DNA from: an uncultured Roseicyclus sp.
Lineage (GTDB): Bacteria; Pseudomonadota; Alphaproteobacteria; Rhodobacterales; Rhodobacteraceae
DNA: 64,000 nucleotides
NCBI GenBank assembly: GCA_937139335.1
Contig: CAKZPN010000027.1
Span: forward strand, 124,001-188,000
Direction of reading: 5' to 3'
Shown here in pieces: positions 2,672 to 8,712 of this stretch. Each line of letters starts with the position of its first letter. Position 1 is the first letter of the stretch. The notes below the pieces were generated by a model that saw only the letters and a list, made by a program, of their open reading frames with translations, was not told the origin of the DNA and did not search any database. A program made the position numbers and the translations under genes.

Positions 2672-3490
2672 ATGGGGTTTCCCGGAACCTGGATGACGGA
2701 GAGCGAAAGCGTGGTCTACCGCGTGGTGCCGAAGTGCGCCTGCTCGACCATCGGCCAGATCCTCTACTATTCCGACAACGGCGTGTATTTCGACGGTGAC
2801 ATCCACGATGCCTCGGGCGGCATGCACAAATGGTCGATCGACGCGAGCCAGCCGGTGATCGAACGCAACGTGCGCGGCCGCGAGACCTACACCTTCACCT
2901 GCGTGCGCAACCCCTACACGCGCATCCTGTCGTCGTTTTTCGACAAGATCTGCGGCATCCAGCGCAACGGCAAGCGCTACCGCGGCAACCTGGTGCCGCT
3001 CCTGATCCAGAAATACGGGATCGAGGTCGGCGGCGAGGACGGCAAGGGTGAGTTCGACCAGATCGCCTCGTTCCGCCGGTTTCTGCTGTTCACGCGCGAC
3101 ACCATCCGCTGGCGCCGCCCGATGGAGCCCGACATCCACTGGTCTGCGATGGCGGGCCATGTCTCCACGCTCATCGTGAATGGCGGGCGTTACGACAACA
3201 TCTTCTGGACCGAGAAGTTCAACGAGGGGATGCAGTCGGTTCTGGACGCGATCGAGGTGAAGAACCCGGTCGATCTGGCAGAGGTGCCGCGCTTCAACGA
3301 AAGCGAGGGGCACGGCCCCAAGCGGCTGCACCCGGTCGAGGATTACTTTGACGACCTGTCGATGCATCTCGTCTACGAGATCTATCACCGCGATTTCGAC
3401 CTGTTCAGATACGACTTCGAGAACCCCGGCAACAAGCTGCCCGTGGGCGAGATCGACCTCGACGAGGTGCACGCCAAGCTCGGCGACTGA
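2672..3490 (+). CDS. sulfotransferase family 2-like protein
   Basis: PAPS-binding-like VPKCACSTI and later TCVRNPYTRILSSFFDK motifs. Confidence 0.8.
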   Translation: MGFPGTWMTESESVVYRVVPKCACSTIGQILYYSDNGVYFDGDIHDASGGMHKWSIDASQPVIERNVRGRETYTFTCVRNPYTRILSSFFDKICGIQRNGKRYRGNLVPLLIQKYGIEVGGEDGKGEFDQIASFRRFLLFTRDTIRWRRPMEPDIHWSAMAGHVSTLIVNGGRYDNIFWTEKFNEGMQSVLDAIEVKNPVDLAEVPRFNESEGHGPKRLHPVEDYFDDLSMHLVYEIYHRDFDLFRYDFENPGNKLPVGEIDLDEVHAKLGD

Positions 3491-3628: not shown

Positions 3629-4849
3629 ATGACCCCACTGACTCACCGGTTCGCCGCGGCCGCCCTGGCCGCGTTGCTTTTGTCGCCCGGCACCGCCGGG
3701 GCTCAGACCGCCGCGCTGGAAAGCCAGCGGCAGGCGGTCTTCGCCCAGCTTCTCTCCGCCCCCGCCGACCGAACGCTGATGCTGCAATACGCGCGGCTTT
3801 CGGTGCAGCTGCGCGATTTCGAGGCTGCGGCCGCGACGCTGGAGCGGTTCGTCGATCTTGACCCCGGCAACACCGGCGCGCGGATCGAGCTTGCCATCGC
3901 GTATTTCTCGCTCGGTGCCTATGACGTGGCCGAATACCACCTCGCCGCTGCTGCCGCCTCGGGCGCGCTGACGCCGGAGCAGGCCGAGCGCGTGGCAACC
4001 TACCGCGACGAAGCCGCAGGGCGCAACCAGCCCAGCCAGTTCAGCGGCCGCGTGGCCATCGGGCAGGCGTGGCTGCGCGAAGCCGACACCTCCGGCACCT
4101 TCGGCACCGCCGAGCTTGACTGGCGCATCGACATGGGCGGGCCGCATGCCGCCGAATGGCTGACGCAGCTCAGCTTTTCCAGTTACGTGCCTGGCGAGCA
4201 AAGCTTCGGCGAGCGCCAGATCGCGCGCCTGCGCACCGGCCCCGAGTTTCGTCTGGTCGGCGAAGTGCATGGCCCCCGCCTGCAACCCTATCTGGAACTG
4301 ACGGCGTTCCGCGACGACAGCTTCGGCTTTGGCGACTACAACGCGGCAGCACTCGGTTTCGCCTACCAGAACCCGCACAATGCCTTCTGGACCAGCTATG
4401 CCGATGTGCAGGTCGGCCGGGCCGAGGCAGATGCCGCCTTCGGGCAGGACTTCGATTTCCACGAGGCGAGCTTTGGCGCGAGCTACCGGCCGTCACGCGA
4501 CACGCGCATTCGCGGCACGTTGCGCTGGCGCGTCGAGGACAGTGATTTCCAGATGCTCACCACCCACGGGCTGCGGGTCGAGGCGTTGCACAGCTTCGAC
4601 ACCGGCCTCAGCCTTCTGCCGCGGCGGTGGGAACTGCGCGGATTTGCGCAGCGCGACTATCTCGAGTTCGACTACGGCGGCGGCTTTTCGGACGAGGCGA
4701 TCGACACCGCCTATGGCGGCGGGCTGCGGGCCTTCGTGACCGAAGATCTGTTTCTCGAAGCGCGCGGCAGCCGGCTGAAGCGCGAATTCGACTACGGGTT
4801 CACGCAGGAAGAAACCGTGTATTCCCTGCAAATCGGATGGGAGTTCTGA
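3629..4849 (+). CDS. TPR-containing outer-membrane beta-barrel protein
   Basis: Signal peptide, TPR-like N-terminal half (LMLQYARLSVQLRDFEAAAATLERFVDLDPGN), beta-rich C-terminal half ending in aromatic F (YSLQIGWEF). Confidence 0.7.
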   Translation: MTPLTHRFAAAALAALLLSPGTAGAQTAALESQRQAVFAQLLSAPADRTLMLQYARLSVQLRDFEAAAATLERFVDLDPGNTGARIELAIAYFSLGAYDVAEYHLAAAAASGALTPEQAERVATYRDEAAGRNQPSQFSGRVAIGQAWLREADTSGTFGTAELDWRIDMGGPHAAEWLTQLSFSSYVPGEQSFGERQIARLRTGPEFRLVGEVHGPRLQPYLELTAFRDDSFGFGDYNAAALGFAYQNPHNAFWTSYADVQVGRAEADAAFGQDFDFHEASFGASYRPSRDTRIRGTLRWRVEDSDFQMLTTHGLRVEALHSFDTGLSLLPRRWELRGFAQRDYLEFDYGGGFSDEAIDTAYGGGLRAFVTEDLFLEARGSRLKREFDYGFTQEETVYSLQIGWEF

Positions 4850-4850
4850 G

Positions 4851-5627
4851 ATGATGCGCCCCCTCGCCCTTCTCCGCCCCGCCCTTCTTGCCGCCGCGTT
4901 CGCCCTGCCCGCCTCGGCACAGCAGATCGGCACCGTCGCGTCGTCGGAGCCGACCCTGCGCGGCACGCCCCCCGGGGCCGCCACCCGCACGCTGGCGCTC
5001 GGCAGCGGCCTTGTCTCGAACGAGACCGTGGCCAGTTCTGCCTCGGGACGCGGGCAGCTTCTGTTCGCGGACCAGTCGACGCTCAGCCTGGCGCCGAACA
5101 CCACCATCGTGCTCGACCGCTTTGTCTACGACCCGGCCAGCGGCGCCGGCGCGGTCGGGCTGTCGTTGACCGAAGGCGCGCTGCGCTTCATCGGCGGCAC
5201 GCTGTCGCGCCAGCAGGATGCGGTGATCACGACGCCGACCGCCTCCATCGGCATTCGCGGGTCAACGGTGCTGGTGCTCTACCGCGGCGGCCAGACCTAC
5301 GCGATCTTCATCGCGGGCGAGCGGATGTGCATCGTGTCGGGTGGCACGCAAAGCTGCACCAGCCGCCAGGGTGGCGTGCTGACGAACGACGGCTATGCCG
5401 GCTCTGTCGCGTCCGAGTTCCTGACGCTGATCCTGTCGCTGATCGACGGCAACCCCGCCGGCGGCGGCGGCACCGGCCCCGGAACCGGCGTCGACAACCC
5501 CAACCCGTCCGAGCGTGGGCCGGTCTCGACCATCGGCGAGGAATTCGACCGGATGATCTTCGAGGATGATTTCACCCTCGACGCGATCTTCGAGTTTCTT
5601 GAGGAAAACTATTTCTACGAAGAGTGA
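4851..5627 (+). CDS. FecR domain-containing exported protein
   Basis: Signal peptide, then FecR-like SGLVSNETVASSASGRGQLLFADQSTLSLAPNTTIVLDRFVYDP...TPTASIGIRGST. Confidence 0.85.
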   Translation: MMRPLALLRPALLAAAFALPASAQQIGTVASSEPTLRGTPPGAATRTLALGSGLVSNETVASSASGRGQLLFADQSTLSLAPNTTIVLDRFVYDPASGAGAVGLSLTEGALRFIGGTLSRQQDAVITTPTASIGIRGSTVLVLYRGGQTYAIFIAGERMCIVSGGTQSCTSRQGGVLTNDGYAGSVASEFLTLILSLIDGNPAGGGGTGPGTGVDNPNPSERGPVSTIGEEFDRMIFEDDFTLDAIFEFLEENYFYEE

Positions 5628-5654
5628 CGGTCCGGCGTCTCGCGCGGCAGGCGG

Positions 5655-7853
5655 CTAACGTTTGGCCCCTGCCCGCTCCGCCCCATCCCAATCCTGGGGT
5701 GGCGGGCTGCGCAGGAAGGCCGCGATCCGGTCGAGGTAGAGCTGCGCCAGAAGCGGCGTGTCGCAGAAAGGCACTTCCATCGTGGCCAGGTCGGTGAACC
5801 GATCCTCCGCCGTGGTCCAGTTGCGGCCAAGATAGGCGGCGCGGGCGGTTTCGAGCGTATCCGCGAAATCGCCCAACCCCGGCGCATCCGAGGGCACCAC
5901 CAGGTAGACCGGCACGGCGGTGGAAAAGCCTTTGGCCGCGATCAGGTCGAGCTGAACCGCCCGCAACCCCTCGGGCAGGGACGCGACCGTCGTCGCGCCG
6001 ACGCAGTTCGCGACGCCGTAGATCCGCGTCAGACCCTCGAGCCGGGCGGCGAGCGTCACGCTGTCGCCGATCGCGGTGTAGCTGAGCCGGTCGCGCGAGC
6101 CCATCAGCCCGACCGAGGCCGGGCCGGTGTTGATGCCGATCCCGAGCGCCACTTCGGGCAGGCCCTGCGCCGTCAGCGCAGCGCTGGCGCGGCTGGCCGC
6201 CGCCTCGATCCCGGCCAGCGCCCTGAGGGCTGCGGCGGCGTGGTCCTTGCGCGCGATGGGCGCGTTCCAGAACGCCATCACGGCATCGCCCATGAACTTG
6301 TCGATGGTGGCGCCCGCGTCGAGCAGCGCGTCGGCCAGCGCCGAGAGCCAGGTGTTCACCAGCGCCACGACCCGGTCGGGCGCCATGCCCTCGGTCACGG
6401 TGGAAAAGCCGCGCATGTCGATGAAGATCACCGTCAGCTCGCGCTCCGCCCCCTCCGGGGTCAGGGCCGCGGCGGGGTTCGCCTCGATCCGTCCGATCAG
6501 TTCGGGCGGCAGGAAATAGGCGAAGCGGTCGCGGATGACCCGGCGCGCCCGATCCTTGGCCAGAAAGCCCAGCGTGGTGCCCGGGACGTAGACCATCAGC
6601 ACGGTCAGGACCGGCAGCACCGGGTCGAACAGCAGCCCCGCCCGCGAAAAGGCCAGAAGTCCGCCCAGCACCGCGCCCGCGATCAGCCCCACCGAGGCGA
6701 GAAGCCCGAGCACCGGACGTTCGCGCAGTTGCAAGAGCGTCAGCGCCAGCCCCGACAGGACGACCAGCAGGATCTCGAGGCCAGGCATCCAGTCGGGTCG
6801 CGACAGGAAATGCCCGGTGGCGATCTGCTCGATGATCTCGGCATGCAGCGTCACGCCCGAAATCTGGTTGTCGAGCGGCGTGGTGCGCAGGTCGAACAGC
6901 CCCTGCGCGGAGGAACCGACCAGCACGATCCTCCCGGCAATCCGTGCCTCGAGCTCCGGGTCGATGCCATCGGCCTCCAGGATGTCGCCCACGGGCGTCA
7001 CCCGCTCGGGCCGGTAGCCGGTGAAGTGGATGCGAAACCGGCCGTTGGCCTCGACCGGAAACTCCAGTGCGCCGGTGCGCATCGCCACCGCCGCGACGGT
7101 CCCGCCCGAGACCTCACCCGAGGCCTCGCTTGTGCGCAGGATGTGCCCGCCCGCGCCCTGCGCCACCCGCAGCAGTTCCGCCGAGAGCGAAGGGATCAGC
7201 GTGCCGCCGATGTCGCTGACCATCGGCACCGTGCGCGTCACGCCATCGGCGGTCCGTCCCAGCGAAATGGTGCCGAGCCCCGTGGCGACGGCGGTCAGCT
7301 CGGGCAGGTTGCCGATGGCGGCGGGAAACCGCGTGAGGCTTTGCGGCACCTCCCCCGTCACCGCGACGCCGGCCCGCGCCTCGGGCTGCACGCCTTGCGG
7401 CGCGCCCACGACGCTGAGGACCACGGGCCGCCCCGCGATCGCCTCGGCAAAGCGCGCGTCATGCGGCACCAGCCCGAGGTCGGGCAGCGCGGGCGGGATG
7501 CCGTCGGTGAACCTGCTCCAGCTTTCCACGATCCGTTCGGGCGAAGTGCGATCGGGTTCCGAGAACAGCACGTCGAACCCCACGGCGGCGGCGCCATGGT
7601 CGAACAGCCTGTCGGTCAGCTCCGCCATGTAACTGCGCGGCCAGGGCCATTGCCCGTAAAGAGCCAGCGACGCCTCGTCGATGTCGACGATATGCACCGG
7701 CGCGTCGGGGACGAAGTCGCGCGGGCTGAGGCGCTGATAGCCGTCGAAGACCGCGTCCTGCACGCGCGCCAGCATCGGCAGGCTGAGCCAGACCAGCACG
7801 ACCATGATCGCGGTCGCCGACAGCCCCAGCGCCAGGATCGCCCGGCGCATCAC
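5655..7853 (-). CDS. CHASE2 domain-containing class III adenylate/guanylate cyclase
   Basis: N-terminal CHASE2 (VHIVDIDEASLALYGQWPWPRSYMAELTDRL), TM segments, catalytic domain (ELTVIFIDMRGFSTVTEG, GDAVMAFWNAP, YTAIGDSVTLAARLEGL). Confidence 0.93.
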   Translation of the reverse strand: MMRRAILALGLSATAIMVVLVWLSLPMLARVQDAVFDGYQRLSPRDFVPDAPVHIVDIDEASLALYGQWPWPRSYMAELTDRLFDHGAAAVGFDVLFSEPDRTSPERIVESWSRFTDGIPPALPDLGLVPHDARFAEAIAGRPVVLSVVGAPQGVQPEARAGVAVTGEVPQSLTRFPAAIGNLPELTAVATGLGTISLGRTADGVTRTVPMVSDIGGTLIPSLSAELLRVAQGAGGHILRTSEASGEVSGGTVAAVAMRTGALEFPVEANGRFRIHFTGYRPERVTPVGDILEADGIDPELEARIAGRIVLVGSSAQGLFDLRTTPLDNQISGVTLHAEIIEQIATGHFLSRPDWMPGLEILLVVLSGLALTLLQLRERPVLGLLASVGLIAGAVLGGLLAFSRAGLLFDPVLPVLTVLMVYVPGTTLGFLAKDRARRVIRDRFAYFLPPELIGRIEANPAAALTPEGAERELTVIFIDMRGFSTVTEGMAPDRVVALVNTWLSALADALLDAGATIDKFMGDAVMAFWNAPIARKDHAAAALRALAGIEAAASRASAALTAQGLPEVALGIGINTGPASVGLMGSRDRLSYTAIGDSVTLAARLEGLTRIYGVANCVGATTVASLPEGLRAVQLDLIAAKGFSTAVPVYLVVPSDAPGLGDFADTLETARAAYLGRNWTTAEDRFTDLATMEVPFCDTPLLAQLYLDRIAAFLRSPPPQDWDGAERAGAKR

Positions 7854-7992
7854 GCAGCCTCCCGCCGCTTGATCGATCCGTCACGGGCCACGCGGCCGCC
7901 CTCCTCCAGCGCTCCTTGCGGCGCAGCATGGGCGATTGTCGGTGCCGTGGCAAACCTTCGGAGGGGGTTTCGCGGCCGGTTCGGGGGCGCGG

Positions 7993-8712
7993 TCACTCGA
8001 CCCTGCGCAGGGCGGGTTTCGGCACGGCGCCGTTCACGTGCCGCGTCTGCGCGGCGCGGTCCATCGGCACGCTGTCGGCGACCTTGCGCGCCAGTTCGTG
8101 CCCGAAGAGCGCGACCATCGCGTTCGACAGCGCGGGCGTCCGCGCCATCCGCCTCTTGAATTGCGTGATCGGCAGGCGCACCACCGTGCCGCCATCGGGC
8201 AGCGTCACCGATGCGGAGGACGGGTTGCCGGTCAGGAGCGCGATCTCGCCCACGAAGGCCGGTCCCGCGATGGGAAATTCCGCACCATCCTTGGCGATCA
8301 GGATACGGTCGGAGAAGACCAGCATCAGGTTCTCGACCGGCTGTCCCTCCCAGGTCAGCTCGGCGCCCGCCCCCTCGGTCTGGCGCACCATCATCGGGCG
8401 CAGCCGCCGGAACTGGCCCGGCGTCAGCGTGCCGAAATGGGTGAACAGCGACCGGTCCTCCGCGCTCATCCGCCAGGTGGTGCGCTCGGAGATGATGAGA
8501 AGGATCAGCGCGACGTTGATCGCGACGAGGCCGAGGTTCGACAAGGTGGATTGCAGGATCGGCTCGGGCCGCAGCCCGTAGAAGGCCGCGTCGCAGGCCA
8601 GACCGCCGGCCACCATGACCCGCAGCAACAGCTCGTCGCGCACGAGGAAGCCCGCGATCTTGAGAATGAGTCCAACGAAAAGAATGCCGCTCAGAATAAG
8701 CGAAACGTCCAT
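7993..8712 (-). CDS. membrane-anchored cyclic nucleotide-binding domain protein
   Basis: Three hydrophobic segments (MDVSLILSGILFVGLILKI...) followed by cNMP-like fold (FVGEIALLTGNPSSASVTL). Confidence 0.75.
   Translation of the reverse strand: MDVSLILSGILFVGLILKIAGFLVRDELLLRVMVAGGLACDAAFYGLRPEPILQSTLSNLGLVAINVALILLIISERTTWRMSAEDRSLFTHFGTLTPGQFRRLRPMMVRQTEGAGAELTWEGQPVENLMLVFSDRILIAKDGAEFPIAGPAFVGEIALLTGNPSSASVTLPDGGTVVRLPITQFKRRMARTPALSNAMVALFGHELARKVADSVPMDRAAQTRHVNGAVPKPALRRVE

Follow-up and report, generated by a model that had tools for sequence, protein, structure and literature searches.

Which partner does a FecR protein work with when it lies beside a cyclase and not beside a sigma factor? 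The question is raised by four genes at positions 3,629–8,712 of a 64,000-nucleotide stretch (hereafter the window) of contig CAKZPN010000027.1, from an uncultured Roseicyclus sp. (assembly GCA_937139335.1). They encode an outer-membrane beta-barrel protein with tetratricopeptide repeats (TPRs), an exported FecR-domain protein, a class III nucleotide cyclase with a CHASE2 domain, and a membrane protein with a cyclic-nucleotide-binding (CNB) fold. The reading I favour, with a probability of about two in three, is that this block is an envelope-to-cyclic AMP (cAMP) relay of the rhizobial NsrA-CyaK type in split form, with a POPDC (Popeye)-like protein that reads cAMP or scaffolds the cyclase. 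In such a relay, the outer-membrane TPR-barrel protein would form a receptor together with the FecR protein at its periplasmic face, and a ligand or an envelope event would change this receptor. The FecR domain would then make contact with CHASE2 on the periplasmic side of the inner-membrane cyclase, altering the cyclase's activity and hence cAMP, and the POPDC-like protein, anchored in the inner membrane by three helices, would read this local cAMP or hold the cyclase in place.

A convergent block of cyclase and putative receptor genes

All four open reading frames (ORFs) are real and lie where the original prediction, made by reading the window without database searches, had placed them, as two convergent pairs that meet at a short gap. 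The TPR-barrel and FecR genes are on the forward strand, the cyclase and CNB protein genes on the reverse (Table 1), and the better start of the last is the ATG at 8712. The source assembly (3.77 Mb, 92.5% completeness) holds a single match to the class III cyclase family PF00211 and a single match to FecR (PF04773), and both are the window proteins.

Table 1. Coordinates of the four genes and their parts within the window.
Feature	Position	Strand	Basis or remark
TPR/14-strand outer-membrane barrel protein, 406 aa	3629..4849	+	Pfam TPR_19 2.8e-6, AlphaFold, Foldseek
Signal peptide	~3629-3703	+	
TPR helices	3689-4024	+	
Barrel	4034-4843	+	C-terminal Phe
Exported FecR-domain protein, 258 aa	4851..5627	+	Pfam FecR (PF04773) 7.1e-11
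FecR domain	5025-5318	+	
Acidic C-terminal tail	5526-5624	+	
Gap between convergent gene pairs	5628-5654		27 bp; sequence
CHASE2 class III nucleotide cyclase, 732 aa	5655..7853	-	Pfam CHASE2 3.5e-55, Guanylate_cyc 1.8e-10
CHASE2 domain	7808-6747	-	transmembrane helices after CHASE2
Catalytic domain	~6443-6021	-	
Thr600 codon at transition-state Asn position	6054..6056	-	alignment
Membrane CNB protein, POPDC (Popeye)-like family, 239 aa	7993..8712	-	AlphaFold, Foldseek, Pfam
Transmembrane helix 1	8706-8644	-	
Transmembrane helix 2	8634-8572	-	
Transmembrane helix 3	8556-8482	-	
CNB fold	8421-8074	-	
Phosphate-binding-cassette segment	8253-8206	-	VGEIALLTGNPSSASV, Arg missing

The assignment of the first gene to a TPR beta-barrel protein held up. 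Its Pfam TPR matches are weak, and both the sequence and the AlphaFold model have a Sec-type signal peptide at the N-terminus. The model, built from 25 relatives with plasmid-derived rows left out, has a mean pLDDT (AlphaFold's per-residue confidence) of 89, and consists of seven TPR-like helices followed by 14 long strands that run to the C-terminal Phe, forming a predicted barrel with no plug. Foldseek matched it to the 14-strand barrels OmpG (2iwv, TM-score on target 0.70) and CymA, and also to the TPR-barrel export proteins BcsC and PelB. The latter matches would suit another explanation, namely that the TPR-barrel and FecR proteins are an outer-membrane channel for secretion or polysaccharide export, and that the cyclase monitors this export and not an outside ligand. 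In other genomes type I or NHLP exporters do adjoin FecR-CHASE2 modules. Against this, neither an exporter nor a polysaccharide synthase is found among the annotated neighbours in the window, and NsrA, which combines the same three domains, is genetically a receptor (PMC7529298). I therefore consider an export channel unlikely.

The second gene encodes, as predicted, an exported FecR-domain protein with an acidic tail. It possesses a Sec-type signal peptide, no transmembrane helix thereafter by hydropathy, and no cytoplasmic anti-sigma N-terminus. A profile of its family matched the PDB entry 5ix9, deposited as an antifreeze protein (1e-8), which would fit large adhesins having FecR-like domains at their base; I disregarded the other PDB matches, most of which lay in the low-complexity tail. 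A FecR domain next to an outer-membrane barrel could also be taken for classical FecI-FecR-FecA cell-surface signalling, an arrangement that the original prediction had denied, and rightly so. A Sigma70_r2 search of the window's contig found no sigma factor, and hence no extracytoplasmic function (ECF) factor adjoins fecR; the FecR protein has a signal peptide in place of the anti-sigma region and membrane helix, and the barrel has 14 strands and no plug. The genome encodes ten sigma-70-type proteins, none of them on this contig, and I rejected the FecI-FecR reading, whose probability is close to nil.

The third gene encodes a CHASE2 class III cyclase, and the solved structures nearest to its catalytic domain are adenylate cyclases. 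I aligned it with homologous CHASE2 cyclases (138 sequences in total). D479, K519, D523 and R604 are nearly invariant and all present in the window protein; the metal-binding Asp residues D479 and D523 occur in 138 and 137 sequences, respectively. In an alignment that includes CyaB and CyaC, K519 and T593 form a base-recognition pair of the ATP type. The domain thus retains the metal and base-recognition residues whose loss would have spoken against the original prediction. A Lys/Thr pair predicts an ATP substrate, which is established class III chemistry; ATP is the predicted substrate of the window cyclase, and cAMP would be its product. The transition-state pair is altered: the Arg (R604) is kept and the Asn is replaced by Thr600. 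Asn occupies this position in 133 of the aligned cyclases and Thr in only three, from the window and from the loci L050 and L066. This rarity, together with the low PF00027 score of the fourth protein given below, would fit a locus of non-functional or merely coincident neighbours, in which a degenerate cyclase adjoins an unrelated membrane protein. The other catalytic residues are intact, however, and the same Thr recurs in the L050 cyclase, 63% identical over the whole protein, where the four-gene block is conserved. This makes degeneration or coincidence quite improbable.

An Rfam scan of the window gave zero matches, a promoter and terminator consensus scan gave no informative site, and NCBIfam left all four proteins without a usable name. 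On the reverse strand at 955-2550 is a Core-2/I-Branching glycosyltransferase gene with a C-terminal DUF5928, adjoining a sulfotransferase gene (2672-3490).

Linkage of FecR and CHASE2 across genomes

The original prediction had proposed gene-neighbourhood analysis as a check, and such an analysis supports a link between the two convergent pairs. I sampled 199 genomes of the Rhodobacteraceae, 44 with CHASE2 and 50 with FecR: 40 have both, 10 FecR only, 4 CHASE2 only and 145 neither, in counts that ignore shared ancestry. In the 44 CHASE2-bearing genomes, a CHASE2 gene lies no more than 6 kb from 43 of the 54 FecR domains, against about 0.3 expected, and FecR adjoins the CHASE2 gene in 43 of the 58 CHASE2 loci of the family. 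The cyclase also served to retrieve 80 named genome loci; FecR is within 6 kb in 43 of them, some of the others being limited by contig ends. FecR and cyclase genes share a strand in 46 loci, converge in 20 and diverge in 21; all three orientations occur, and the linkage has survived many rearrangements without a fixed operon. Of 40 barrel loci across the class, 29 contain a FecR gene no more than 300 bp away on the strand of the barrel gene, and in 15 the fetched stretch includes a CHASE2 cyclase. The co-occurrence of FecR, TPR-barrel and CHASE2 cyclase is thus far above chance. The barrel-FecR pairs without a cyclase showed, in those loci, no CHASE2 receiver with another output. CHASE2 proteins without a cyclase domain were found only in L056 (8469-10784) and L070 (9347-11572), where the C-terminus resembles a SpoIIE/PP2C-type phosphatase instead.

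The case that tells most is a related genome in which the whole block recurs. In L050, from a different genus of the same family (genome G081), all four genes are present in the same order and on the same strands, with 42-63% identity, in a 20-kb stretch that contains none of seven tested flanking genes of the window. The absence of co-occurrence that would have counted against the original prediction was thus not what the related genomes showed.

In many other loci of the family, FecR forms the N-terminus of proteins of 800-3,000 residues. Cadherin-like, bacterial-Ig, VWA and RTX repeats were seen in the ones scanned, whose genes have as neighbours a CHASE2 cyclase gene and the two genes of a type I exporter (HlyB-like ABC and HlyD). 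Such loci (L032, L037, L038, L040, L041, L046, L047, L199 and L219) suggest that adhesins signal to cAMP by way of FecR and CHASE2. On Ensifer and Shinella plasmids (L072 and L073), genes for a small CNB protein and for NHLP-type peptide exporters lie next to those for TPR, FecR and CHASE2-cyclase proteins. What stays constant is the pairing of FecR with CHASE2; the surface part is exchanged between TPR-barrels, NsrA and giant adhesins.

The CNB proteins near CHASE2 cyclases vary as well, including SulP-STAS, patatin, SpoIIE phosphatase, glutaminase, EAL, ion channel and Crp types. A CNB gene is present in the fetched stretch of 12 of 41 CHASE2 loci of the family, against some 2-3 expected from the density in the source genome. 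Fusions of CNB domains to SulP-STAS, SpoIIE phosphatase, glutaminase-STAS, patatin, ion channel or EAL parts were seen in L036, L038, L043, L051, L058, L071, L174, L175, L190 and L218, as if each CHASE2 module had its own cAMP effector. It would thus appear that FecR-CHASE2 serves generally to couple outer-membrane proteins to inner-membrane enzymes, as a module whose surface part and nearby CNB output are exchanged. What CHASE2 senses, a long-standing question, can then be tested directly: the candidate is a FecR domain that an outer-membrane protein presents.

The POPDC-like fourth protein

The AlphaFold model of the fourth protein (pLDDT 93) contains three transmembrane helices and a CNB fold, and Foldseek matched it to CNB domains. 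For its family I scanned 21 sequences, obtained after expansion, singly against Pfam, since a genome-wide six-frame search with PF04831 (POPDC1-3) was noisy below the cut-off. cNMP_binding was matched by 19 members and PF04831 by 17 (best 7e-10), and the cassette Glu (Glu156) is invariant in all 21. The window protein itself has no PF04831 match at E up to 5; its L050 ortholog has a weak one (4.4e-4), and the CNB protein of L044, which likewise adjoins a CHASE2 cyclase, scores 29.9 bits against a cut-off of 28.1. Among 19 other CNB proteins, taken as a broader control, 4 matched PF04831. The two singly identified among these (L255 and L258) are themselves three-helix CNB proteins, and the non-Popeye controls outside the three-helix group gave no match (0/8). 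In L255 and L258 the match takes in the transmembrane part of the profile (protein residues 14-93), so that generic CNB similarity is no sufficient explanation. The DSPE and FQVT motifs are absent from the window protein, which has VGEIALLTGNPSSASV at the cassette, and I therefore call it POPDC-like and not POPDC. No POPDC chain was among the matches listed in the PDB search.

According to POPDC reviews (including PMC6952887), the Popeye domain is restricted to POPDC proteins, from hydra to man, and its nearest known relative is bacterial CRP. No report of a bacterial POPDC was found in the literature searched, in which subscription papers are little covered. The fourth gene is the part of this locus that could surprise a specialist. 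POPDC-like genes are commoner in CHASE2-bearing genomes (15/44 versus 12/155, odds ratio 6.2). Of 30 such genes, 3 have a CHASE2 gene no more than 6 kb away, where 0.09 would be expected; in another order (L212), one lies 455 bp from a cyclase. Most members are elsewhere in their genomes, and the link to CHASE2 is thus real but not general. One genome (G185) has a tandem pair of POPDC-like CNB genes far from any CHASE2 gene (L242:1498-2991). That Alphaproteobacteria hold relatives of the animal POPDC proteins, and that the one found here is dedicated, as partner or effector, to a CHASE2 cyclase that senses the envelope, I put forward tentatively, with the odds somewhat against it. If it is true, POPDC proteins have prokaryotic kin and their association with adenylyl cyclase has a bacterial counterpart; and, were the neighbour confirmed as a cAMP effector, a family of human disease genes that is confined to animals in the reviews would gain a bacterial relative open to experiment.

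The main competing explanation keeps the receptor and the cyclase as proposed, and has cAMP act through CNB proteins elsewhere, such as Crp-type regulators and CNB transporters, with the POPDC-like neighbour as an accessory scaffold that binds no nucleotide. The genome has eight CNB matches, POPDC-like genes mostly lie away from CHASE2, the canonical cassette Arg is missing throughout the family, and S. meliloti uses Clr, which is encoded next to cyaD1. On the other side, L050 retains the fourth gene with the other three while all tested flanks differ, the family is enriched in CHASE2-bearing genomes, and animal POPDC proteins have a divergent cassette, yet bind cAMP (PMC6952887). I regard this explanation as a serious contender, only a little short of an even chance.

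Returning to the relay with the POPDC-like protein as its output, several observations weigh against it. The linkage counts ignore shared ancestry, as noted; the modelled TPR-barrel protein resembles polysaccharide export channels; and the replacement of Asn by Thr at position 600 may lower catalysis. For the fourth protein, the score against cNMP_binding (PF00027) is 22.1-22.2 bits, under the cut-off of 27.5; the cassette Arg is replaced by Ser, Ala or Thr in 21 of 21 family members; only 3 of 30 POPDC-like genes of the bacterial family are beside CHASE2; and with seven other CNB proteins in the genome, the neighbour need not be the cAMP target. Its helices and fold stand, and the assignment to cNMP binding is weaker than in the original prediction. 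The proposed circuit from envelope ligand or FecR through CHASE2 to a membrane-anchored receptor is largely supported as far as cAMP, both by linkage and by the genetic precedent in S. meliloti, where FecR leads through CHASE2 to cAMP (PMC7529298, PMC13001267); its last step, the fourth protein as nucleotide receptor, is not, given the missing Arg, the sub-threshold score and the minority of CHASE2 loci concerned. The reading builds on gene content, domain folds, conserved linkage and a one-chain FecR-TPR-barrel homologue adjoining a CHASE2 cyclase, all of them observed. For receptor formation and signalling from FecR to CHASE2, the support comes from the conserved linkage and, in another organism, from NsrA genetics; direct contact between FecR and CHASE2, and a local effector or scaffold role for the POPDC-like protein, would complete it.

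Relation to known signalling systems

The closest known system is in Sinorhizobium meliloti. On pSymB, next to a CHASE2 cyclase gene, I found an ORF for a 1,219-residue protein that ends where cyaK begins, with FecR at residues 85-179 (2.3e-15) and TPRs at 397-606. The record is unannotated; position next to cyaK, length and architecture fit NsrA, whose C-terminal region is described as a beta-barrel (PMC7529298). The response to ribosomal protein uL2, which depends on cAMP, requires both NsrA and CyaK (PMC7529298), NsrA acts with the CHASE2 cyclases CyaK and CyaD1/D2 (PMC13001267), and signal-induced output of a cAMP reporter needs both NsrA and CHASE2 cyclases (PMC7529298, PMC13001267). These systems and the window share a FecR, TPR and outer-membrane barrel assembly coupled to an inner-membrane CHASE2 class III cyclase, encoded by adjacent genes. 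Since NsrA carries FecR, TPR and barrel in one chain, the two forward-strand genes of the window correspond to NsrA cut in two, and are separate from each other and convergent with the cyclase, the barrel being predicted at 14 strands; I therefore call the window a split variant, and not NsrA. At the cyaD1 locus, the cyclase lies between a FecR gene and a Crp-family gene, the latter in the place taken in the window by the gene for the POPDC-like membrane CNB protein.

Other precedents are more distant. Campylobacterota have clusters of CHASE2-adenylate cyclase, FecR, TPR and phosphodiesterase genes (PMC9239204), which share with the window the grouping of a CHASE2 cyclase with FecR and TPR proteins, and have a phosphodiesterase where the window has a CNB membrane protein. 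In the BiofilmReg operon of Burkholderia, a LysM-FecR protein gene lies beside a CHASE2 sensor gene (PMC5192318), as in the window, but the sensor is a histidine kinase and the output passes to a response regulator. With these precedents and NsrA-CyaK, the receptor-cyclase part of the block is of a known kind. FecIR-FecA has in common with it a periplasmic FecR domain and an outer-membrane barrel; the window differs in having neither an ECF factor nor a TonB-dependent receptor, and its FecR protein does not span the membrane.

For the fourth protein, the comparison is with animal POPDC, the Popeye proteins that sense cAMP in heart muscle. In both, three transmembrane helices precede a CNB-type domain whose phosphate-binding cassette is non-canonical, and PF04831 is matched by family members of the window protein. 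The window protein differs in being bacterial, in lacking the DSPE and FQVT motifs, and in having no PF04831 match of its own. There is also a parallel in their partners: POPDC1 binds adenylyl cyclase 9 in the heart (PMC9724675), and the POPDC-like gene of the window adjoins that of a cyclase.

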